From a virus, in IMG/VR virus record IMGVR_UViG_3300042361_000666, positions 1 to 39,499 of that record: a DNA stretch of 39,499 bases; one strand, 5' to 3'. The notes beneath the pieces are model-generated. The model was not told where the DNA came from. It made no database searches and saw only the letters and a list, made by a program, of their open reading frames with translations. Position 1 is the stretch's first letter. The number at the start of each line of letters is the position of its first letter. Below are positions 16,158 through 39,499 of the stretch, in pieces. Made by a program: the position numbers and the translations under genes.

Positions 16158-16688
16158 ATGAGTCAAACATTAAACGAACAAATCCAAAGAATTAAATCCG
16201 TGATGGAACAGGTTTCAGAACCTGTAAGTGGTAAATGTGATTTAACCAAACTTCAAGGTGCTGGTAGTAATAATAGAGAAGCGAGATTGTGGGATAAAGA
16301 ACTTGCTAGACAAAACAAGGCCGAAGAGAAAGAAAGAATCCAACAGAGTAAGAACTTTATGTCACTTGCCTATGATAGGGATGCGTTCCCGTTGGATAAA
16401 TCTGCAAGAAAGGAATATTATACACAATACCAAGAATTCATGAAATCCAATCCATCTTTGTTATCCAACTCGGGTGGGTATAGTGCAGAACAAAAATATG
16501 CAATCACTTCCAAAACATTGGACTTTTTAAGAAATACTCCAAGAATGTCCTATACCATTAACTTAGGGTCTAAGTTTGGACTCAACTCTAAGAGTACCAT
16601 TCAAAACGTCAACGACGTTATTGAGAAAATGGGTGGGTATGATGTTTACATGGAATGGTTTAATGCTGGAGGACCAAAATTTAAATAA
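16158..16688 (+). CDS. Uncharacterised tagged protein (176 aa)
   Basis: The N-terminus MSQTLNEQIQRIKSVMEQVS is a short amphipathic helix with an LNE tripeptide. This is a third flavour of the leader peptides shared in this region. The rest is helical and charged (EARLWDKELARQNKAEEKER), then a globular C-terminus rich in aromatics. No domain is recognised. First gene of a three-gene operon (16158-18376) that contains the lipase. Confidence 0.7.
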   Translation: MSQTLNEQIQRIKSVMEQVSEPVSGKCDLTKLQGAGSNNREARLWDKELARQNKAEEKERIQQSKNFMSLAYDRDAFPLDKSARKEYYTQYQEFMKSNPSLLSNSGGYSAEQKYAITSKTLDFLRNTPRMSYTINLGSKFGLNSKSTIQNVNDVIEKMGGYDVYMEWFNAGGPKFK

Positions 16689-16689
16689 T

Positions 16690-17421
16690 ATGACAAAAGA
16701 CGAAGTAATCTATAACGTACAATTATGTGACGTTGTATATAAAGACCAAAAAGACATTGACTTCAAATCACTTGGATTAACATCCGTTAAGTGGATTGAT
16801 GATAAGAAATCAGATACCCAAGGATTTGTTGCCCTGAAAGGGAAGTCACTCTATGTGGTCTTCAGAGGTACGTCATCAAAGAAGGATGCTCAGAACGATG
16901 TATCTATTGACAAGGTTCCATTCATCCTCGAGGGTGATAAGGTACACATAGGTTTCAAATCTTCTTGGGATGCTGTTAAGAACACCATTCTCAAAGATAT
17001 CACCAAGATGAGTGGGTATAATAAGATTGTTGTATGTGGTCATAGTCTTGGAGCAGCGGTTGCTACTCTATGTGCTTATAACCTTTCCCACGTATTTGAG
17101 GATACCACTATTGAATGTTGTACCATAGGAAGTCCAAGGGTCGGTAATAAGACCTTTAAGAACAACTATGACAGTCGTAAGATTAAAACCCTCAGAATCG
17201 TCCATAATAACGACGTGGTGACACGTTCTCCCAACATAGGGTACTATCACGTCAATCACATGTTACGAATCGACCACGAGGGTAATATTAAGAAATTTAT
17301 GATTGATTGGGAACGTGCTTGGAATTTCCTTAAATCTATGGTTACCGGAAAGAACATTAAGGACCATATGACTGCTGGTTATATGAGTTCATTAAAGAAG
17401 TGGTACGATAAACAACCTTAA
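16690..17421 (+). CDS. Class 3 lipase (alpha/beta-hydrolase)
   Basis: 243 aa, starting at MTKDEVIYNVQLCDVVYKDQ, 1 nt after the upstream stop. It has the lipase class 3 layout. The oxyanion region is VVFRGT (56-61), and the nucleophile elbow GHSLGAA has Ser119. GSPRVG is at 147-152. The catalytic Asp175 lies in HNNDVVTR, and His226 in DHMTAGY. The full Ser-Asp-His triad suggests an active esterase of triacylglycerol or phospholipid type. There is no signal peptide and no leader tag of its own. Lying between two tagged proteins suggests a virion or entry role; envelope damage at lysis is the alternative. Confidence 0.9.
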   Translation: MTKDEVIYNVQLCDVVYKDQKDIDFKSLGLTSVKWIDDKKSDTQGFVALKGKSLYVVFRGTSSKKDAQNDVSIDKVPFILEGDKVHIGFKSSWDAVKNTILKDITKMSGYNKIVVCGHSLGAAVATLCAYNLSHVFEDTTIECCTIGSPRVGNKTFKNNYDSRKIKTLRIVHNNDVVTRSPNIGYYHVNHMLRIDHEGNIKKFMIDWERAWNFLKSMVTGKNIKDHMTAGYMSSLKKWYDKQP

Positions 17422-18376: not shown

Positions 18377-18470
18377 ACCTCGTATATCCCCGTTCACGGT
18401 TTTTGTACTCCGGTACCCCCGTTCGCAATTTGTGACCCTTTAATTTTTGTGTCCCTTAATAATTGTGGGA
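18377..18470 (+). other. Short intergenic with degenerate CCCCGTTC repeats
   Basis: CCCCGTTC occurs at about 18388 and 18419 (the second within CCCCCGTTCGC). Each is followed by a G/T-rich stretch ending in TTTGTxxCCC-like sequence. No clear terminator hairpin is seen. Confidence 0.45.
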
Positions 18471-18478
18471 TATTTATA
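18471..18478 (+). promoter_or_regulatory. TATTTATA box, 7 nt before the 18486 gene
   Basis: GATATTTATATGTGTATATG. Confidence 0.55.
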
Positions 18479-18485
18479 TGTGTAT

Positions 18486-19931
18486 ATGAAACTAATTGAT
18501 ATTTTATTTGAAGCTGTTGTTGACGAAGGGTTAAAAGTCACTCAAGACGAATTTATACAAAGACTCAAGGATAAATTCAAGAATGATTTAGTTGTACTAC
18601 CTAATGGTTCAAAGGTTCCTCGTTATGATTTTTCCAATACAGTTTACAGAGGTGCAGCAAAACCATTTAATTTTTATTGTAATAAAATAGGTAATGACGG
18701 TAAACCACATGGTATACAACAAGTGGCCGCATTAAACAATATGTTACGTAGAAACGATGGTTGTAAATTATGTGGTGCTGAGAACACATCATCTCGTTTT
18801 GGTCATAATCAAGATAAGTTTATAAAAAAGGCGGAAGAAAGATGGGGGAAGGGTAGATGGGACTATTCTAACTTAAAATACAAAGGGAGTGAAGAACCTG
18901 TAGATATTATCTGTCGCAAGAAAGATGAAAATGGAGTGGAACATGGACCATTTACTATTAATAGAGCTCAGTGGTTCTTGGCAAAGAATAACCCCATGTA
19001 TTGTAAACAATGTTCCAATGAATATCGTGCAAATGCATTTACTCAAAAAGCACGTACGCGTGAGGAATTTATAAAGAGGGCCGAAGAATTACACGGTAAG
19101 GGTACATACGATTATAGTCAAATGATTTATAAACAAGGTAAAGGTAAGGAACCTGTAATGAATATCATGTGTCATAAAAAAGATGAGGATGGTATAGAAC
19201 ATGGATTATTTGGTTTGAAAATGGCACAGGGTTTAATTACCAAAGAAAGACCTTTAGGTTGTCCCAAATGTGCGAAACTTAATAAAACAGAAAGAGTATC
19301 ATATAAAAAAGACGAATGGGTTGATTTCGCTCGTAGCATACATAAATTTAAAGATGGGACACCAAAATATACCTACGAGAAAATTGACTTAATAAAATCA
19401 CCCTATATAAAAGCCATTGATCATGTGATTGTAAACTGTCCGAAAAAAGGACATGGTGATTTTTATATTAAATCTGCCTCCCATTTATATAGTAAATCAG
19501 GTTGTCCCAAATGTGCAACATCCAAAGGTGAGGATGCTATGGCACAATATCTTTATTCTTTAGGTTATGACACAATAAAAGATAAAAAATTTGATGACTG
19601 TACAAACTCTTGGAAAGGGGTTAAATGTTACAGATATAAATTTGATGCGTATTGTCCAAAATTAAATACCATATTTGAATTTGATGGTGGGTTTCATTTT
19701 ATAAAAACCTTTAAACAAACTGATGAACATTTTAAATTACGTGCAATGGATGATATATACAAAAACAACTATTGTAAGAGGAAAGGTATTAAAATGGTAA
19801 GAATTGCATATACCGATATAAAAGATATCAAAGGACAAATTGATAAAGCATTAGAGAGTAATGAAATGTTATGGTTATCTGATAACTATCCAACGGATAA
19901 GGGGTGGAGAGATAAGAGTATTAAATTTTAA
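18486..19931 (+). CDS. Tagged Vsr-like endonuclease with zinc-binding repeats
   Basis: 481 aa, starting at MKLIDILFEAVVDEG; an upstream ATG would include the promoter box. Residues 20-350 hold four repeats of about 80 aa. Each has F-x-x-x-A, a G-x-x-x-YDYS-like segment, (P)V-x-I-x-C and HG-x-F, and ends in C-x-x-C (CKLCG, CKQCS, CPKCA, CPKCA). These are the DUF723-type repeats that often accompany phage endonucleases. The C-terminus (about 355-460) is a PD-(D/E)xK/Vsr-like nuclease: GEDAMAQYL, YKFDAYCPKLNTIFEFDGGF, then a K-rich helix and GIKMVRIAY. The LFE-A leader site suggests packaging; a homing or host-DNA-cutting role is inferred. Confidence 0.8.
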   Translation: MKLIDILFEAVVDEGLKVTQDEFIQRLKDKFKNDLVVLPNGSKVPRYDFSNTVYRGAAKPFNFYCNKIGNDGKPHGIQQVAALNNMLRRNDGCKLCGAENTSSRFGHNQDKFIKKAEERWGKGRWDYSNLKYKGSEEPVDIICRKKDENGVEHGPFTINRAQWFLAKNNPMYCKQCSNEYRANAFTQKARTREEFIKRAEELHGKGTYDYSQMIYKQGKGKEPVMNIMCHKKDEDGIEHGLFGLKMAQGLITKERPLGCPKCAKLNKTERVSYKKDEWVDFARSIHKFKDGTPKYTYEKIDLIKSPYIKAIDHVIVNCPKKGHGDFYIKSASHLYSKSGCPKCATSKGEDAMAQYLYSLGYDTIKDKKFDDCTNSWKGVKCYRYKFDAYCPKLNTIFEFDGGFHFIKTFKQTDEHFKLRAMDDIYKNNYCKRKGIKMVRIAYTDIKDIKGQIDKALESNEMLWLSDNYPTDKGWRDKSIKF

Positions 19932-25529: not shown

Positions 25530-26372
25530 ATGTTACTAAAATTAGGATCTGAAGGAGAAGATGTAAAAAAACTCCAAGTTAAATTGGGTGTTGACCCAAT
25601 AGGTAAATTTGGACCAAAAACAGAAGCAGCGGTTAAAACGTGGCAATCTGCTAATGGTTTAACTGCAGATGGTATTGTTGGTGATGGCACTTGGAGTAAG
25701 TTATTCTCTGAAGGTGTTGTAAGCGCTCCAACAATTATAACTGAACCAGCACCTGTTGCTTCAGTTGGTGGGTTAAAATTAGAAAAACTAAAGGGTCATA
25801 TTCCTGATGCGGTTATTCGTCAAATTCCCGACACGGCCGCTAAATTTCAAATTAATACACCGTTAAGATTAGCACACTTCTTGGCACAATGTGGTCATGA
25901 ATCAGGAGGGTTTAGAGCCACAAAAGAAAATTTAAATTATTCAGCTAAGGGATTAGTGGGTACGTTTAAAAAGTATTTCCCAAATGAAGCGGCAGCAAAA
26001 CCATACGAAAGACAACCTACTAAAATTGCAAATAAAGTTTACGGAAATAGAATGGGTAATGGTCCCGAATCTTCAGGTGAAGGTGCAAAATTCTGTGGAC
26101 GTGGATATATCCAATTAACTGGTAAGGAAAACTACACTGCGTTTGGTAAATCAATTAATGAAGATATCCTATCAAATCCTGACAAGGTTGCATCAGATTA
26201 TGCATTATTATCAGCGGCTTGGTTCTTCTCAAAGAACGGTCTTCATAAAATGGCTGACGGCGGAGCAACTGATGCTGTTGTTACTTCAATTACAAAAAGA
26301 GTAAATGGAGGTACGATTGGATTAGCGGATAGAATTAAACACTTTAAAGAATATTATTCATTATTATCATAA
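25530..26372 (+). CDS. Endolysin: peptidoglycan-binding domain + GH19
   Basis: 280 aa. Residues 1-60 are a peptidoglycan-binding type 1 domain (GSEGEDVKKLQVKLG, FGPKTEAAVKTWQ, GLTADGIVGDGTW). After a Pro-rich linker, residues about 85-280 form a GH19 chitinase/lysozyme-like domain. The HFLAQCGHESGGF motif carries catalytic Glu124, and Glu180/Glu184 lie in NGPESSGEG ahead of GRGYIQLTGKENY. Expected to hydrolyse glycan strands of peptidoglycan at lysis. There is no signal peptide, so export needs a holin. Terminator follows directly. Confidence 0.93.
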   Translation: MLLKLGSEGEDVKKLQVKLGVDPIGKFGPKTEAAVKTWQSANGLTADGIVGDGTWSKLFSEGVVSAPTIITEPAPVASVGGLKLEKLKGHIPDAVIRQIPDTAAKFQINTPLRLAHFLAQCGHESGGFRATKENLNYSAKGLVGTFKKYFPNEAAAKPYERQPTKIANKVYGNRMGNGPESSGEGAKFCGRGYIQLTGKENYTAFGKSINEDILSNPDKVASDYALLSAAWFFSKNGLHKMADGGATDAVVTSITKRVNGGTIGLADRIKHFKEYYSLLS

Positions 26373-30127: not shown

Positions 30128-30679
30128 ATGAGCAAGATAATTAACTTTTTTGGTGGTCCTGGTATAGGTAAATCAACACAAGCATCAGGTTTATTTACCG
30201 AGATGAAAAAACGTCACATGAGCGTCGAATATACGTATGAGTTCCCTAAAGAAGTTGCATGGGAAGGTAACATATCTCAATTAAAAGATCAATTTTTTAT
30301 TACCGCAAATCAACATAGAAACATTAGTCGTCTTTATGGTAAGGTTGATTATATAATTGTAGATTCACCAATCATTCTTGGATGTTTTTATGAACAAAGG
30401 TATGGTGATGATTATCCCGCGTCGTTTTATGGAATGACAGGTTTAGGTGACTTTATATGGAAGTTATTTAAACAATATGAAAATATAAACATAATATTAA
30501 AGAGAAATAATGAGACATATGACCCTAACGGTAGGATACAAGATTTACAAGAGGCTGAAGAAATTGATAGGGATATTAAACTCACATTGGATATTAATAA
30601 TATACCTTATAGTGAATTTAGTGTTCATAATGACACTCCTTTGGAGATTTACAAATATTTAATAGAAAACAATTTATGA
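30128..30679 (+). CDS. P-loop ATPase/kinase (AAA_28-like)
   Basis: 183 aa. Walker A GGPGIGKST (residues 9-17), a Walker B-like strand DYIIVDSP (about 75-82) and a lid-like Arg helix region (IILKRNNETYDPNGRIQD) suggest a small nucleotide-binding kinase of the AAA_28 / nucleoside-kinase-like type frequent in large phages. Substrate unknown; a nucleotide or cofactor kinase is the best inference. The stop overlaps the next start by 4 nt. Confidence 0.82.
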   Translation: MSKIINFFGGPGIGKSTQASGLFTEMKKRHMSVEYTYEFPKEVAWEGNISQLKDQFFITANQHRNISRLYGKVDYIIVDSPIILGCFYEQRYGDDYPASFYGMTGLGDFIWKLFKQYENINIILKRNNETYDPNGRIQDLQEAEEIDRDIKLTLDINNIPYSEFSVHNDTPLEIYKYLIENNL

Positions 30680-31278
30680 AAAAAGGTTTACTATTAATCG
30701 TCTTTATTTTATTCAGTACAGTATTATTTGCACAAGACACTATAAGAGTTAAAAATCAAGTATTTGAGGTACTTTACTCTCAAAAATTAGAATCACCTTT
30801 ATGGTTAAAGTACCGTTCAACTAATAGACCTACAAACGTAAATAGAGGGTCAATGGACTTTTATACTGAAAAGAATATACACACGTCTAACGCCGAAGAT
30901 TATGCTAAAAACATATACGATAAGGGACATTTGGCGCCGGCAGCATCATTCTCTGATAATATGGAAAATCTTAAACAAACATTTTCATATTTGAACTGTA
31001 TGTTACAGGATCAACACATGAATAGAGGTGAATGGAGATTACTTGAGGAGCAGGAAAGAAAATGGGATGACAATGGGAATTTGACAATTATCATCAAAAT
31101 ATTTTTTGACAAACCTGTAAGAAGATTACCAACAAACGCAGCAATACCATCACACATGCAGAAACACATATATTTTGAAAAACAAAATGTGTGGAAATGC
31201 TTTGTTTTTTTAAATGAAAAGCCTAAATTTAAATGGGATGAACTTGAGATGGTGTGTCCACCTAGTGACCACAAGTAA
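30676..31278 (+). CDS. Secreted DNA/RNA non-specific endonuclease (NUC1 type)
   Basis: 200 aa. MKKGLLLIVFILFSTVLFAQ is a Sec signal peptide with expected cleavage near residue 20. The core YDKGHLAPAASF (81-92) is the (D)RGH motif of endonuclease NS with Lys for Arg and catalytic His85. QDQHMNRGEW (111-120) supplies the metal-binding Asn116, and LLEEQER adds the conserved acidic helix. The enzyme is Mg-dependent in known relatives and would act in the periplasm or outside the cell. Translationally coupled to the P-loop gene (ATGA). Confidence 0.88.
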   Translation: MKKGLLLIVFILFSTVLFAQDTIRVKNQVFEVLYSQKLESPLWLKYRSTNRPTNVNRGSMDFYTEKNIHTSNAEDYAKNIYDKGHLAPAASFSDNMENLKQTFSYLNCMLQDQHMNRGEWRLLEEQERKWDDNGNLTIIIKIFFDKPVRRLPTNAAIPSHMQKHIYFEKQNVWKCFVFLNEKPKFKWDELEMVCPPSDHK

Positions 31279-33687: not shown

Positions 33688-33749
33688 AATATGTGTTTGA
33701 TTTTTATTAAAATATATGTAAAAAACACCGATAAAAAAAATTATTTACT

Positions 33750-33780
33750 TGAAAGTATCCACATTTTTTTATATATTATC
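33750..33780 (+). promoter_or_regulatory. Possible promoter of the glycosyltransferase operon
   Basis: TTGAAA, 17 bp, TATATT resembles a general sigma-70 promoter. Neither the TAnnTTTG nor the TATTTATA box is present. Weak, AT-rich context. Confidence 0.3.
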
Positions 33781-33796
33781 GTATAATTAAAATATA

Positions 33797-35047
33797 ATGG
33801 GTAACAACAAAATTTTCATTCAAATTGCATCTTATCGAGATCCGCAATTAGTACCAACAATAAAAGACTGTATAAAAAACGCAAAAAAACCGGAAAATTT
33901 AGTTTTTTCAATTGCATGGCAACGTTCGGTCGATGACGAATGGGATAATTTAGATGAATTTAATGGTGACGAAAGATTCAAAATTTTAGACATCAACTAT
34001 AAAGATTCAAAAGGTGCTTGTTGGGCTAGAAATACTTTACAACAACAATACGATGGTGAAGAGTATACTTTACAATTAGACTCTCACCATAGATTTGCCG
34101 AGAATTGGGATGATGATTGCATAAAAATGATTAAACAACTACAAAAGAAGGGACATAAGAAACCATTGTTAACTGGTTACGTTTCATCTTTTGATCCCGA
34201 TAACGATCCCGCCGGTAGAATACAACAACCTTGGAAAATGAATTTCGATAGATTCATTCCAGAAGGTGCTGTGTTTTTCTTACCAGCAACAATTGACGAT
34301 TACAAAGAAAGAACTGAACCTATACCTGCTAGATTTTATTCGGCACATTTTTGTTTTACTTTAGGTTCTTTTGTTAAAGAAGTTCCACACGACCCTGAAT
34401 ATTATTTTCATGGAGAAGAAATTTCAATTGCGGTTAGAGCATATACGTGGGGTTATGATTTATTTCATCCTCACAAAACCGTTGTGTGGCACGAGTATAC
34501 TCGTAAAGGTAGAAAAAAACAATGGGATGATGACAAACAGTGGGTTACCAAAAATGTAAGTTGTCATAAAAGAAATAGAAAATTATTTGAGATGGATGGT
34601 GAGGTAAAAGATATTGATTTTGGAGTTTATGATTTTGGTAAAGAAAGAACTTTAGAGGATTATGAAAGATACGCTGGTGTTTCATTTAAAAAACGTGCCG
34701 TTCAAAAATATACGGTAGATAATAATTTAGCACCTAATCCACCCTTATATGGTGATGAATTTAATAGTTCATTCTTGTCAATTTTTAAACATTGTATAGA
34801 TGTTACCTTCGATAGGGTACCTGAAAATGACTATGATTTTTGGGTTGTTGCATTTCATGATGAAAAAGATGAAACTCTTTTTAGAAAAGATGCTGACAAG
34901 GACGAAATACGAAGATTAAAAAATGACCCCGATGGATATTGTAAAATTTGGAGGGAATTCACGGTTGAAACAAAACCAAAATATTGGGTTGTTTGGCCAC
35001 ATAGTGAATCTAAAGGATGGTCAGAAAGAATAATTGGAGATTTATGA
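33797..35047 (+). CDS. Skp1-type GlcNAc-transferase-like glycosyltransferase (GT60-like)
   Basis: 416 aa. KIFIQIASYRDPQLVPTIKD (5-24), ARNTLQQQYDGEEYTLQLDS (with the metal-binding LDSHHRF) and the following NWDDD reproduce the Skp1 GlcNAc-transferase-like family (Pfam 'GlcNAc', GT60). Later come YFHGEEISIAVRAYTWGYDL and a metal/acceptor-site HEYTR. In eukaryotic relatives the enzyme adds GlcNAc to hydroxyproline. The C-terminal 110 residues (from about 305) are an extra uncharacterised domain. First gene of a seven-gene operon. Confidence 0.88.
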   Translation: MGNNKIFIQIASYRDPQLVPTIKDCIKNAKKPENLVFSIAWQRSVDDEWDNLDEFNGDERFKILDINYKDSKGACWARNTLQQQYDGEEYTLQLDSHHRFAENWDDDCIKMIKQLQKKGHKKPLLTGYVSSFDPDNDPAGRIQQPWKMNFDRFIPEGAVFFLPATIDDYKERTEPIPARFYSAHFCFTLGSFVKEVPHDPEYYFHGEEISIAVRAYTWGYDLFHPHKTVVWHEYTRKGRKKQWDDDKQWVTKNVSCHKRNRKLFEMDGEVKDIDFGVYDFGKERTLEDYERYAGVSFKKRAVQKYTVDNNLAPNPPLYGDEFNSSFLSIFKHCIDVTFDRVPENDYDFWVVAFHDEKDETLFRKDADKDEIRRLKNDPDGYCKIWREFTVETKPKYWVVWPHSESKGWSERIIGDL

Positions 35048-35868
35048 TGAAAGGAAAAATTATATTAGAAACTTGGTTTGAAACAGGGTTAGGTGATTTT
35101 TATGCTTGTCTCATCTCATTAAAAGAGGGATATGATAAATTAATATCATTAGGTTACGATGTTCATGTAAGGATTAATTCTAAAGTTTCATTTTATCATG
35201 ATTTAAAATCACAAAATACTTTATTAGAAGAATGTCTTGATTTCTCACTTTTTAATGAGAACTTAAAATTAAATGTTTCCATTGACGAAGATTTTATAAA
35301 ATTACCAACAGTTGCATATGCGTATAACATATATGTACACAAAGAAAATGAAAATTTGTTGGAAATTCAATCTTTAGATTTGTATGGATATTCTGTTGAA
35401 AACATTGCAAAGGGAGGTCCTTATCCAAGTATTAATAATAGAAAAAGATTGTTATTTAATCATAAATTTTTAAATGAAATTGAAAATATAACAATACCGT
35501 TTGGTAAGTTTATAATGATTCATTTAAGATATGATGATTCACATTTAACATCTGAAACTGAAATAAATCAGATTAAACAACTAATATTGGACATCCATAA
35601 TAATGATAAAGACTTAAAGGTTTTTTTATCATGTCATGTCAAGGAGATAAATGATATTACGGTTGAGGGAGTTGATATGGTTACATTTAATTATGAGGTA
35701 AATAACAACTATGATAGAATGAAAAGAGATTTATTAAACATGGCGATTTTTGCTTATTGTGATAAATTATATACAAGAACTACTCTTTGGTCGAATTATC
35801 AAACATTAGGTTTAATACACAATATAAATGGTAAATCATACGAAGATTACATCGAAAAAATACGATAA
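35044..35868 (+). CDS. Uncharacterised protein of the glycosylation operon
   Basis: 274 aa, starting at MMKGKIILETWFETGLGDFY with an ATGA overlap of the upstream stop; the second ATG (35047) is equally possible. TGLGDFYACLISLKEGYDKL looks like the donor-loop start of a GT-B-type or fucosyltransferase-like fold. KFIMIHLRYDDSHL and AIFAYCDKLYTRTTLWSNYQ resemble the R-x-D-D and C-terminal motifs of such enzymes. Assignment as a glycosyltransferase is plausible but not certain. Confidence 0.7.
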   Translation: MMKGKIILETWFETGLGDFYACLISLKEGYDKLISLGYDVHVRINSKVSFYHDLKSQNTLLEECLDFSLFNENLKLNVSIDEDFIKLPTVAYAYNIYVHKENENLLEIQSLDLYGYSVENIAKGGPYPSINNRKRLLFNHKFLNEIENITIPFGKFIMIHLRYDDSHLTSETEINQIKQLILDIHNNDKDLKVFLSCHVKEINDITVEGVDMVTFNYEVNNNYDRMKRDLLNMAIFAYCDKLYTRTTLWSNYQTLGLIHNINGKSYEDYIEKIR

Positions 35869-36611
35869 TGAATAAAAAATATACAATTGTTATAACAACA
35901 TTCTCTAAAAGATTTGATTTAGTTACAAATTTAATAACTCAAATTAGAGAGGTTACTACAAATCCAATAATACTAACAATTAATGGAGAAAAGGACGGAA
36001 TATTAAATGAGAAATATAGAAAAGATATTTTAAGTTTTTGTGTTAAATTTGATTCAATATATCCCGTATTTTTTACGGAAATACGTTCATTATCTAAACT
36101 ATGGAATATCGGAACAATGAATTCAAATTTAGATAATGTGTTATTATTAAATGATGATATTAAAATTTTAAACAACGATTTTTTTAATCAATGTGATGAA
36201 ATTTTAGAGGAGGATGTGAAAATGGTGTTATTTAATGATAGTTTTTCACATTTTTTTGTAAATAAAATTTTCCTAAATGAAATAGGTTATTTTGATGAAC
36301 GTCTTTTAGGTTTTGGTTGGGAAGACACTGATATGTGGATGAGATTTAAAGAATTGACTGGAGATAAAATAAAAACAGTTAATACCACATCAATTTATAA
36401 CGAATCGTCAGATTTAATATATGATGATGTTAAAACCACGTGGGGAAAATATTCTACATATAATTATGAATATATAAAAACAAAATATAGTAATCCTGCC
36501 GCTGAGAGATATACGTGCGGTAAAAAACTAAAAGAAGATGTTAATCCATATCCAACGGAATCGTACTTTTTAAGTGACAAAAATTTAATTTTTAACAATG
36601 AAAATAATTGA
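35868..36611 (+). CDS. Family 2-like glycosyltransferase
   Basis: 247 aa GT-A protein. N-terminal strand TIVITTFSKRFDLVTNLI, nucleotide-binding DxD-type LLLNDDIKI (about 92-100), and the acceptor-side motif YFDERLLGFGWEDTDMWMRF (about 141-160) are typical of GT2. The sugar donor is not deducible. Overlaps the previous gene by 1 nt (TAATG) and the next by 14 nt. Confidence 0.85.
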   Translation: MNKKYTIVITTFSKRFDLVTNLITQIREVTTNPIILTINGEKDGILNEKYRKDILSFCVKFDSIYPVFFTEIRSLSKLWNIGTMNSNLDNVLLLNDDIKILNNDFFNQCDEILEEDVKMVLFNDSFSHFFVNKIFLNEIGYFDERLLGFGWEDTDMWMRFKELTGDKIKTVNTTSIYNESSDLIYDDVKTTWGKYSTYNYEYIKTKYSNPAAERYTCGKKLKEDVNPYPTESYFLSDKNLIFNNENN

Positions 36612-37353
36612 TACGTTTATTTTTTATAATGAGTTAGAAATGCTCAAATTTAGACTAACAGAATTAAACGAACAAGTCGATTATTTTGTTCTTGTCGAAA
36701 TGACTAAAACATTTGCGGGTAATGATAAGGAATTATATTATGATGCAAATAAGGATATGTTCTCTGAATTTAATGATAAAATTATCCATATCGTTGTAAC
36801 GCCTCCTGAAAATTTAAGTGCGTGGAACAATGAATACTTTCAGAGAAACTCAATAATGAAAGGTTTGGATAAATTGGATTTGAGTGATGATGACATAATC
36901 TTAATACATGATACTGATGAAATACCTGATATTGATAATATCTTAACACTCGATATTGAATTAGTAAAGAAAGGTATGAGAAGTGCGTTTGATAATTATT
37001 ATTATAACTTAAACAATAAAATAGAAGAACATAACCCCTGTGGTATAATATGTTCTTATAAAGTTTTAAAAAACAACTCCCCTCAAAATTTAAGAAGTAA
37101 TTGGAATACCTTTAATAACTCATATAGGGGATGGCATTTTAGTTTTTTCGGTGACGAATATTTTATATCAAATAAAATAAAGAATTTTGCACACCAAGAA
37201 TATAACGATGACTATTATACCGATGTTGAGAGGATTAAAGACGTGGTTGAAAACAATAAAGATATATTTGATAGGGGTAAAGAGAATTCTATTATGAAAA
37301 GAATCGAATTATCAGATTATCTACCTAAAAATTATAAAATGTTATTAAAATGA
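36598..37353 (+). CDS. Glycosyltransferase family 17-like
   Basis: 251 aa. IDTFIFYNELEMLKFRLTEL (4-23), VDYFVLVEMTKTFAGNDKEL and LIHDTDEIPD (about 102-111, DxD-like), then YRGWHFSFFGDEYFISNKIK, follow the GT17 family. The best-known member is the bisecting-GlcNAc transferase MGAT3 of animals. The full set of family landmarks is present, so activity is likely; donor probably a UDP-sugar (inference). Tightly overlapping neighbours. Confidence 0.9.
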   Translation: MKIIDTFIFYNELEMLKFRLTELNEQVDYFVLVEMTKTFAGNDKELYYDANKDMFSEFNDKIIHIVVTPPENLSAWNNEYFQRNSIMKGLDKLDLSDDDIILIHDTDEIPDIDNILTLDIELVKKGMRSAFDNYYYNLNNKIEEHNPCGIICSYKVLKNNSPQNLRSNWNTFNNSYRGWHFSFFGDEYFISNKIKNFAHQEYNDDYYTDVERIKDVVENNKDIFDRGKENSIMKRIELSDYLPKNYKMLLK

Positions 37354-38342
37354 AACAAACAATAAAAGTATCAAGAAGTGGTTTCCCTGGTGTGGGTAAT
37401 TTCTCATGGATGAATTATTTCGTGGGAGTTTTATCTTTAAAATATGATGTGGTTATCACATCAGAAAACCCCGATGTTGTATTTTACAGTAACTTACATT
37501 ACAATCAAGGAGAATATGACTATTACACTAAACAAACAATAAAAGGTTTAAATGAATATGATGAAAGTGTAAAAAGAGTTTTCATAAGTGGGGAGGCGAG
37601 TCCAGGTTATCACGGAAGATTATCAAATAATGAGTATTGTTTAGGATATGAACATATAAATCATCCAAATTATTTAAGATTCCCAACATATGTGTTAGAC
37701 GCATTTGTGTTACACAATGAAGGAGGACTTTTTGATAGTCCGTTCGGATGGTTAACATCAAAGAGAGATGTCGACTCAATAATTTCTAAGAAAAAACATT
37801 TTTGTTCAGTTGTACAATCAAGTGTCAATAATGATAGGGGATTACTTTATGATGAAATAATTAAAAAACATCACATTAAATCTTCAGGTCCTTGGAGAGG
37901 AACTGTGGGTGCAGATGAGGCTTTGAATTACCACAAATACCACAACTATTCAAACCCTGATTATATGGGTAAAATCGATGGATTAGTTTACAGAGATAAG
38001 ATTAAATTCTTCGAAGACTCTCATTTTAACATTGCGTTTCAATATACAAACACAATAGATTTAACACAAGAGAAGATTATACATGCATATGCTGGAGATT
38101 CGATACCAGTTTTTTACGGTAACTCAAACATTTTAAAGGAAGGATTTAACCCTAACGCATTTGTAAATGGACATAGTTTTGAGTCATTTGCAGATACCGC
38201 TGATTTTATGGATGAAGTGTATAGTGATAAAAATAAACTCAAAGAAATGTATTCTGAACCATTTTTTGTTAATAATGAATTACCTATTTATTTTAATGAA
38301 GAATACTTACTTTCTTTTTTTGAAAAAATAATAAATGACTAA
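37350..38342 (+). CDS. GT10-like (alpha-1,3/4-fucosyltransferase family)
   Basis: 330 aa. The C-terminal half carries the GT10 donor-binding order: KHFCSVVQSS, then YRDKIKFFEDSHFNIAFQYT, the TQEKIIHAYAGDSIPVFYG segment (family form Y-x-T-E-K-x-x-x-A-x-x-x-G-x-x-P-V-x-x-G) and NPNAFVNGHSFESF. GT10 enzymes transfer fucose from GDP-fucose. The N-terminal acceptor half is divergent, as usual. Overlaps both neighbours (4 and 8 nt). Confidence 0.88.
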   Translation: MKQTIKVSRSGFPGVGNFSWMNYFVGVLSLKYDVVITSENPDVVFYSNLHYNQGEYDYYTKQTIKGLNEYDESVKRVFISGEASPGYHGRLSNNEYCLGYEHINHPNYLRFPTYVLDAFVLHNEGGLFDSPFGWLTSKRDVDSIISKKKHFCSVVQSSVNNDRGLLYDEIIKKHHIKSSGPWRGTVGADEALNYHKYHNYSNPDYMGKIDGLVYRDKIKFFEDSHFNIAFQYTNTIDLTQEKIIHAYAGDSIPVFYGNSNILKEGFNPNAFVNGHSFESFADTADFMDEVYSDKNKLKEMYSEPFFVNNELPIYFNEEYLLSFFEKIIND

Positions 38343-39006
38343 AGGAAAAATATCTTTCTCACTATACGGTGGACATGACAAATATAATTTAGGTGCCATA
38401 AAAAATTTCGACTTATGTAAAAAATACTTACCTGATTGGGAGGTACATTTTTTCGCACACAGTCACATGACAAATATGGAACTGATGAGTAAATTAAAAT
38501 CGGAAGGTGCAATTGTCAATGTTATGGACGGAGTGACAATGTCCGGTAGAGAATCCACATTTTTCCCAATGTTTTGGAGATTCTTTACTTTTTTTAATAA
38601 TGTACCGTCTATTTCAAGGGATTTAGATTCCAGAATGACATTAAGAGAATCGGAATACATTAGAAAATGGGAAGAGAGTGATAAGTCTATTTTTATTATT
38701 AGGGACCATCCGTGGCATTCTTTGGTGCCGGGAGGTTTAGTTGGTATGAAAAATATTGGGGATGAGTTTAAACTATATTTTGAAAATTACATGATTAATG
38801 GAGGTACCGGATACGGAGATGACCAAGACATGTTATCAAAATTTGTAACCAATCACGGTGAAGAAGATACCTTTAAATGTATTTTTGGTAATGAAAATTA
38901 CATTCCAAGAGATGATAAAGAGTTTTTTATTGGTATTCAATTAAATGAAAACGATGAACCTGAATCGCCAGTTGCAATAAAATATTTAAAAGAAATTGGT
39001 TATTAA
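38335..39006 (+). CDS. Glycosyltransferase-like protein with RDLDSR motif
   Basis: 223 aa. ISFSLYGGHDKYNLGAIKNF (6-25), FFPMFWRFFTFFNN, SRDLDSRMTLRESEYIRKWE (about 93-112), FIIRDHPWH and GGLVGMKN match a phage and cyanobacterial family with GT-A-like features, in which DLDSR replaces DxD. The acceptor and donor are unknown. It overlaps the next gene by 1 nt. Confidence 0.78.
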   Translation: MTKGKISFSLYGGHDKYNLGAIKNFDLCKKYLPDWEVHFFAHSHMTNMELMSKLKSEGAIVNVMDGVTMSGRESTFFPMFWRFFTFFNNVPSISRDLDSRMTLRESEYIRKWEESDKSIFIIRDHPWHSLVPGGLVGMKNIGDEFKLYFENYMINGGTGYGDDQDMLSKFVTNHGEEDTFKCIFGNENYIPRDDKEFFIGIQLNENDEPESPVAIKYLKEIGY

Positions 39007-39499
39007 TGGAAAATGTAATGTTCTGCTCGTTAGCGGTAGGTGAAAGTTATTTAAGGAATTTTATTAACTTATGTAATGAAAAAAGAAAAAAAGATAACTC
39101 CAAAAGTTTAGCTGTTACAGACAAAGACACATTTGAGTTACTTTCTGATTTAATTAAAGAAAATGACCATATTGAGTACGTGGTAATCGGTGATAACTAT
39201 GTAATCAACGAATGGCCGTTGGGGTTTAATTTTAATTTAAAATATCTACCAATCAAACATTCAATCAAAGAGGATATTGATTTTATCATTTATATTGATT
39301 CTGATTTTAGAATTATTGATGGGTATCATCCTGATAAATTCAAAAATTTATTTGATCAGATGATTTCCAATAATATTGATTATGTGTTTGAAAGACCTTA
39401 CTTTATTAGACACGGTAAACAACATCACCATGATAATTTTTGGAGACATAAAATTGAACCGTATGGTTTAATGGAAACGTCGAAATATGACGATTATCA
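39006..39499 (+). CDS. Glycosyltransferase-like protein, 3' end outside window
   Basis: Partial (164 codons shown, still open). Starts MENVMFCSLAVGESYLRNFI with a TAATG overlap of the previous stop. DFIIYIDSDFRIID (about 97-110) is a DxD metal-binding motif in a strand, and ERPYFIRHG follows. This order fits GT-A enzymes of the GT6/GT8-like type that act on short oligosaccharides. The end lies beyond 39499. Confidence 0.75.
   Translation, partial: MENVMFCSLAVGESYLRNFINLCNEKRKKDNSKSLAVTDKDTFELLSDLIKENDHIEYVVIGDNYVINEWPLGFNFNLKYLPIKHSIKEDIDFIIYIDSDFRIIDGYHPDKFKNLFDQMISNNIDYVFERPYFIRHGKQHHHDNFWRHKIEPYGLMETSKYDDY

Follow-up and report, generated by a model that had tools for sequence, protein, structure and literature searches.

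A GT60-headed glycosyltransferase operon in a phage genome as a candidate O-glycosylation system for tail proteins

This analysis concerns the window, by which we mean the whole 39,499-nucleotide stretch (39.5 kb) of the virus record IMGVR_UViG_3300042361_000666, and an operon of glycosyltransferase (GT) genes at its right end. Seven GT-type genes, g1 to g7, lie on the plus strand at 33797-39499, and a near-identical contig, L002 (2 differing bases in 15,703), adds three more after g7, here g8 to g10. On balance, we favour a reading in which the phage uses the operon to O-glycosylate at least one of its own tail or adhesin proteins. The first enzyme, g1, would transfer the first sugar, probably alpha-linked N-acetylglucosamine (alpha-GlcNAc), onto threonine or serine where a tail protein is disordered and rich in Pro and Thr/Ser. 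The chain would then be extended or branched by the g2 to g7 products, of which those of g2 and g5 would probably add fucose, and g8 to g10 (a CmcI/Rha-type methyltransferase, an HtrL_YibB-GT2 fusion and a Methyltransf_24 protein) would finish and cap the glycan.

GT60 and its repeat-protein neighbours

Judged by sequence, g1 is a true member of family GT60 with all of its catalytic residues intact. It matches PF11397 with an E value of 3.2e-71 (241 bits, cut-off 21), and in the alignment D95, H97, E208 and R214 are kept in 116 of 116 homologues and H232 in 115 of 116; the catalytic/metal-binding DxH motif is retained as DSH. Searching PDB sequences with this family's profile returned no relatives. 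The AlphaFold (AF2) model, which has a predicted local distance difference test score (pLDDT) of 92, shows a GT-A fold of the polypeptide N-acetylgalactosaminyltransferase (ppGalNAc-T) type: compared with PDB structures, its first 29 entries are all ppGalNAc-Ts (Z 19.6-22.6), enzymes that initiate mucin-type O-glycosylation, and the next group follows at Z 18 and 17. GT60 holds both Gnt1, the GlcNAc-transferase that acts on hydroxyproline of Skp1, and mucin-type threonine alpha-GlcNAc transferases (PMC6939170, PMC3769586); g1 would probably place alpha-GlcNAc on a polypeptide. The literature searched contained no report that connects GT60 with phages. The first-pass annotation, made without database searches, had ascribed the operon to eukaryote-like families, subject to the catalytic residues being present on alignment. 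The families are indeed catalytically intact and in part eukaryote-like. The residues of g1 are kept in essentially all of the homologues; the GT2 match of g3 falls under the cut-off.

The proposed acceptor is suggested by the company that GT60 genes keep. We scored arrays of threonine-proline (TP) repeats, (TPTx)n, within the 10 kb flanks of 80 IMG/VR GT60 loci, and found them at 58 of the 80, at a median distance of 0.8 kb from the g1 homologue, with 1078 TP matches in the same orientation as g1 and 31 in the opposite one. The encoded proteins are modular, with TP linkers joining BspA-like leucine-rich repeat, LamG lectin and other domains. When g1 homologues were clustered at 90% identity, 22 of the 35 clusters had TP arrays. 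The association could also be recovered in reverse, in contigs chosen blind to GT60: PF11397 was present in 16/38 contigs picked for TP repeats (at least 50 kb long) versus 1/28 controls (at least 26 kb; p=0.0004), and the sole GT60-bearing control also has TP repeats. For relatives picked by their DNA polymerase, the lineage test became informative only with whole records, the loci alone being uninformative; TP arrays were found in 35 of 36 records with GT60 and in one of four without it, that one being a 27 kb fragment. Among cultured phages, XacN1, CM1 and RAS14 each carry GT60 and 22-51 TP matches, whereas ten related jumbo phages have neither. We infer that TP and Pro-Ser repeats serve as the acceptor.

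VgrG, a spike protein of type VI secretion systems (T6SS), corresponds to the gp27-gp5 spike of phages. In Burkholderiales, chromosomal GT60 genes sit in T6SS clusters, downstream of TssF and near a gene for a VgrG spike. All 15 intact VgrGs adjacent to GT60 (13/13 chromosomal and 2/2 plasmid) have Pro-Ser/Thr tails; none of the five control VgrGs, taken from Burkholderiales plasmids that lack GT60, has one. The tail units, which include (TP)n, (PPPSEE)n, (TPDE)n, (STPEP)n and (PPQTEE)n, are mutually unrelated save for Pro and Ser/Thr. The Burkholderiales T6SS members cluster separately from the phage members in the GT60 tree, and thus GT60 is linked to Pro-Thr/Ser repeats in more than one branch. 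In Jiulongibacter sediminis, a TP protein, GT60, a carbamoyltransferase and an FkbM-HtrL-GT2 set are found together. The literature searched contained no report of GT60 O-glycosylating VgrG or T6SS spikes. More tentatively, at slightly less than an even chance in our estimation, GT60 could represent a prokaryotic mucin-type O-glycosylation dedicated to contractile injection machines. In large phages and T6SS clusters a ppGalNAc-T-like initiator would modify the hypervariable Pro-Thr/Ser tails that adhesins and VgrG spikes carry, and a swappable phage cassette would set the glycan.

Among the bacterial loci, L503:13078-15567 and its Burkholderiales relatives have a hypervariable repeat-tailed VgrG adjoining GT60 and RHS genes, for which the literature searched offers no explanation. 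A plasmid of Cupriavidus campinensis (L535) carries a VgrG relative that is apparently frame-broken ahead of its tail.

Operon layout and cassette variation

The seven overlapping GT genes described in the first-pass annotation are present with verified open reading frame (ORF) coordinates and overlaps of 1-14 nt (4, 1, 14, 4, 8 and 1 nt, in order from g1/g2 to g6/g7). The g2 start is placed at 35044, which is preceded by GGAG and gives the 4-nt overlap with g1; using the first ATG, at 35017, would make it 31 nt. Rightward extension, proposed in the same annotation, could be done via L002, where the operon has ten genes, ends at about window position 42606 with a methyltransferase gene, and contains g7, cut by the window edge, at its full length of 245 aa. 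The same ten genes are also present in contig L006. The features are as follows.

33688-33796, no strand assigned: intergenic stretch preceding g1, containing a -35/-10-like pair (TTGAAA-17-TATATT, 33749-33777)
33797-35047, plus strand: g1, GT60/PF11397 'GlcNAc' transferase, predicted polypeptide O-glycosylation initiator (D95-S96-H97, E208, R214, H232)
35044-35868, plus strand: g2, GT-B protein resembling fucosyltransferases, HxRxxD motif; in-frame upstream ATG at 35017; model pLDDT 70
35868-36611, plus strand: g3, GT2-like glycosyltransferase, NDD motif; PF10111 weak
36598-37353, plus strand: g4, GT17 glycosyltransferase, HDTDE motif; PF04724
37350-38342, plus strand: g5, GT10 alpha-1,3-fucosyltransferase-like, motif EKI..AYAGDSIPVFYG; PF00852
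38335-39006, plus strand: g6, SRDLDSR-motif protein, putative GT-A; no Pfam match
39006-39499 (window edge), plus strand: g7, IDSD-motif putative glycosyltransferase; no Pfam match
In L002: g8, CmcI/rhamnosyl-O-methyltransferase-like; PF04989, 1.5e-7
In L002: g9, HtrL_YibB domain and, after it, a GT2-like part (EDD motif); PF09612, 2e-15
In L002: g10, Methyltransf_24 protein; 2e-17

Promoter-like matches in the region were not above their frequency in shuffled sequences. The GT17, GT10, RDLDSR and DSD-motif genes claimed from the sequence could be identified as g4, g5, g6 and g7, respectively. The GT17 assignment of g4 is strong (PF04724, E 2.6e-30, 106 bits, cut-off 26), and g5 exceeds the GT10 cut-off (PF00852, E 2.3e-6, 27.8 bits, cut-off 23.9) and has a PDB sequence match to the Helicobacter pylori alpha-1,3-fucosyltransferase (5zoi/2nzw, 5e-12). 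The match of g3 to PF10111 (3.3e-5, 24.0 bits) is under the cut-off of 27.3, making it GT2-like at most. No sequence-family match was found for g2, which the first-pass annotation had left unassigned; its model is nearest to the NodZ/POFUT/FUT8 fucosyltransferases (Z 10.3) and the HxRxxD motif is present, so g2 may be a fucosyltransferase-like GT-B enzyme, an assignment that is tentative because the model has a pLDDT of just 70. A PDB sequence search gave no matches for g4 or g6; genes related to g6 (26-45% identity) recur in further GT60 loci.

Relatives of g1 were found in at least 124 IMG/VR contigs, and the complete g2-g7 set is common to L002 and L006 only. An HtrL_YibB protein like g9 lies downstream of GT60 in 71 of the 80 phage loci and in XacN1; of 80 cellular loci, 18 have one. 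The genes between g1 and HtrL_YibB differ among relatives and encode many different GT-like and methyltransferase-like proteins; for example, a carbamoyltransferase is found in this position in XacN1 and RAS14. Constant ends with a variable middle are what would be expected of a pathway that always starts and finishes in the same way but yields varying glycans, and each phage would therefore wear a different one.

Some phages of the window clade have a tandem duplication of GT60 (L047:10001-12507, L077:10001-12557 and L080:10001-12503), the second copy being 38-42% identical to g1. The 288 kb record behind L080 (G025) carries a tandem pair of GT60 genes, with identities to g1 of 64% and 42%, and 595 forward TPTxTPT matches, which start at a dense array near 108 kb (L349/L350, from about 108-110 kb onward). 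Elsewhere in the window are genes for an esterase/lipase-like protein (16576-17421), an HNH homing-endonuclease-like protein (18447-19931), an endolysin with a chitinase-like part (25530-26372), a nucleotide-kinase-like protein (30128-30679) and a nuclease-like protein (30676-31278).

The acceptor and competing explanations

The window virus would presumably use an acceptor of the same kind, which is the weak point of the tail-directed reading. No TP array was found inside the window or L002, and a TP target within the window was rejected, since no TP repeat protein is encoded there. The window clade is mostly without TP arrays in the DNA seen, including the records of L005 (131 kb) and L016 (181 kb); the only clade relatives with arrays are L007, L008/L009 and L012. 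In this clade the GT60 locus does not adjoin tail genes. Other points against concern the association as a whole. For 13 of the 35 g1 clusters at 90% identity, the available sequence contains no TP array. Many contigs are near-duplicates, shared ancestry enters the counts as well, and the contrast among cultured phages comes from one clade only. In the reverse test the TP set was longer than the control set, which favours gene detection in the former. Within long single records, TP arrays are just mildly denser around GT60 than elsewhere, and in the L080 record 0/596 TP matches lie near it.

One of the nearest repeat proteins in the same virus is a Thr-rich linker protein encoded on the L002 contig, and the clade mates L005 and L016 have GSS/GTS-rich repeat proteins in place of TP proteins. 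For example, the L016 record encodes a collagen-like (GSS/GTS)n tail fibre with a Peptidase_S74 chaperone (L342:8144-11248), whose repeats contain no proline. The acceptor in the window clade may be a TP protein encoded beyond the sequenced DNA, a fibre rich in Ser/Thr, or another molecule.

The best surviving alternative, which we nonetheless consider improbable, is that the TP association reflects lineage hitch-hiking in large phages, and that the operon glycosylates another virion component. The scattering of TP arrays across phage genomes, the modest enrichment near GT60 in long records and the frequent absence of arrays from the window clade would all fit this. Hitch-hiking does not readily account for the recurrence at Burkholderiales T6SS VgrGs, where unrelated, fast-changing units share only Pro and Ser/Thr, for the recurrence in Jiulongibacter beside a GT60-carbamoyltransferase-HtrL cassette, or for the association in the contig set picked blind to GT60.

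Loci for lipopolysaccharide (LPS) contain HtrL_YibB, CmcI-type methyltransferases and GT10. This resemblance would suit an operon that alters host LPS or capsule, blocking superinfection or receptors, as the variable GT cassettes of jumbo cyanophages have been interpreted (PMC7824862). We rate such host surface modification as quite unlikely: characterised members of the g1 family act on polypeptides, the g1 fold is that of a ppGalNAc-T, GT60 is located in tail operons or T6SS clusters adjoining Pro-Thr/Ser proteins, and none of the operon genes matches a flippase, polymerase or undecaprenyl-phosphate transferase. The first-pass annotation had allowed for a branched oligosaccharide on a virion protein, on DNA or on host glycans. 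The glycan-building operon stands, and a virion protein is the best target because GT60 associates with TP-rich tail or adhesin proteins and VgrG spikes; DNA and host glycans are less favoured.

Marginally less probable again is a Skp1-like pathway, in which g1 would place GlcNAc on hydroxyproline made by a prolyl-4-hydroxylase and other GTs would add galactose and fucose. Inclusion of Gnt1 in GT60 (PMC6939170) and the proline present in TP repeats are in its favour, as is a short 2-oxoglutarate (2OG)-Fe(II)-oxygenase-like protein with an HYD..H..R motif (no Pfam match) encoded beside TP-rich genes (L038:19576-20055, also L035, L037 and L061). PF13640 oxygenases number three in the L016 record (near 33 kb) and two in that of L078, and are missing in the other 41 of the 43 GT60 records, those of 242, 272 and 288 kb included; these records are fragmentary, and PF13640 is the one 2OG family that the search covered. 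The Skp1 fucosyltransferase is a GT74 enzyme within a bifunctional protein; the operon contains no GT2-GT74 fusion, g5 being GT10 and g2 GT-B fucosyltransferase-like (GT74 itself was not searched). The L016 tail fibre repeats offer no proline to hydroxylate. The hydroxyproline reading is thus weakened by the PF13640 search and the GT74 literature, and the idea that GT60 and GT10 together recall the Skp1 pathway found no support, Thr-directed GT60 members also being known.

A search for prolyl-4-hydroxylase and nucleotide-sugar genes had been proposed as a check. For the latter, 16/43 records have PF16363 genes, and the L055 record has an adjacent pair, under the cut-offs, resembling GDP-mannose dehydratase (TIGR01472, 399 bits, cut-off 415) and GDP-fucose synthase (NF047922, 3e-73). 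A fucose supply is therefore plausible, and hydroxyproline, with PF13640 in 2/43 records, is not general. The GDP-fucose pair belongs to a second glycan locus of the L055 phage (L452, G020:44000-56000), which also has an RfbH/PseC-like sugar aminotransferase and several GTs.

DNA hypermodification, in which the GTs would glycosylate hydroxymethylated bases, is very improbable despite precedent in other phages and thymidylate-synthase-family genes in 9/29 related records (not separable from ordinary thyA), as no link of g1 with DNA-modification genes was seen, ten genes including two sugar-type methyltransferases exceed the needs of base glycosylation, and bacterial g1 relatives accompany secreted spikes.

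Significance and comparison with known systems

If the operon does O-glycosylate tail or adhesin proteins, mucin-type O-glycosylation, mostly known as eukaryotic, would have a widespread prokaryotic and phage branch for virion tails and T6SS spikes. The Thr-Pro tracts of large phage proteins and VgrG tails would be explained, many phage GTs annotated merely as 'glycosyltransferase' would gain an identifiable acceptor, and enzymes for O-glycopeptide production in bacteria would come to hand. The cultured phages XacN1 and RAS14 and non-pathogenic Paraburkholderia, such as the root-nodule isolate P. sprentiae, make this reading directly testable.

Glycosylation of structural proteins by phage GTs has been described for the mycobacteriophages Che8, Corndog and Myrna (Freeman 2023, as summarised in PMC10877033 and PMC12363180). 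These belong to another phage group, and the summaries describe no GT60 initiator or ten-gene swapped cassette. The Skp1 pathway (Gnt1/PgtA) likewise has a GT60 first enzyme and a fucosyltransferase in the set; the phage differs in having no conserved prolyl hydroxylase partner and no Skp1, and its fucosyltransferase is GT10 rather than GT74. Closer in proposed function are TcOGNT-2 of Trypanosoma cruzi and Gnt2 of Dictyostelium, which share PF11397/GT60 and the DxH motif, and like which g1 would start O-glycans on Thr-rich stretches. Unlike these, g1 is phage/bacterial, its operon supplies the tailoring GTs and methyltransferases as well, and its putative targets are tail or spike proteins. 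The closest cultured relative is the ORF334 locus of XacN1, where a carbamoyltransferase and other tailoring genes replace g2-g8. It shares with the window a GT60 enzyme (49% identical) and the HtrL_YibB partner, and it is accompanied by TP repeats, the TP-rich ORFs of this phage including ORF325, 350, 369, 370, 372 and 384. At least two glycoproteins are present in the virions of XacN1, and the two GTs put forward as candidates include ORF334, which is homologous to g1 (PMC5852040).

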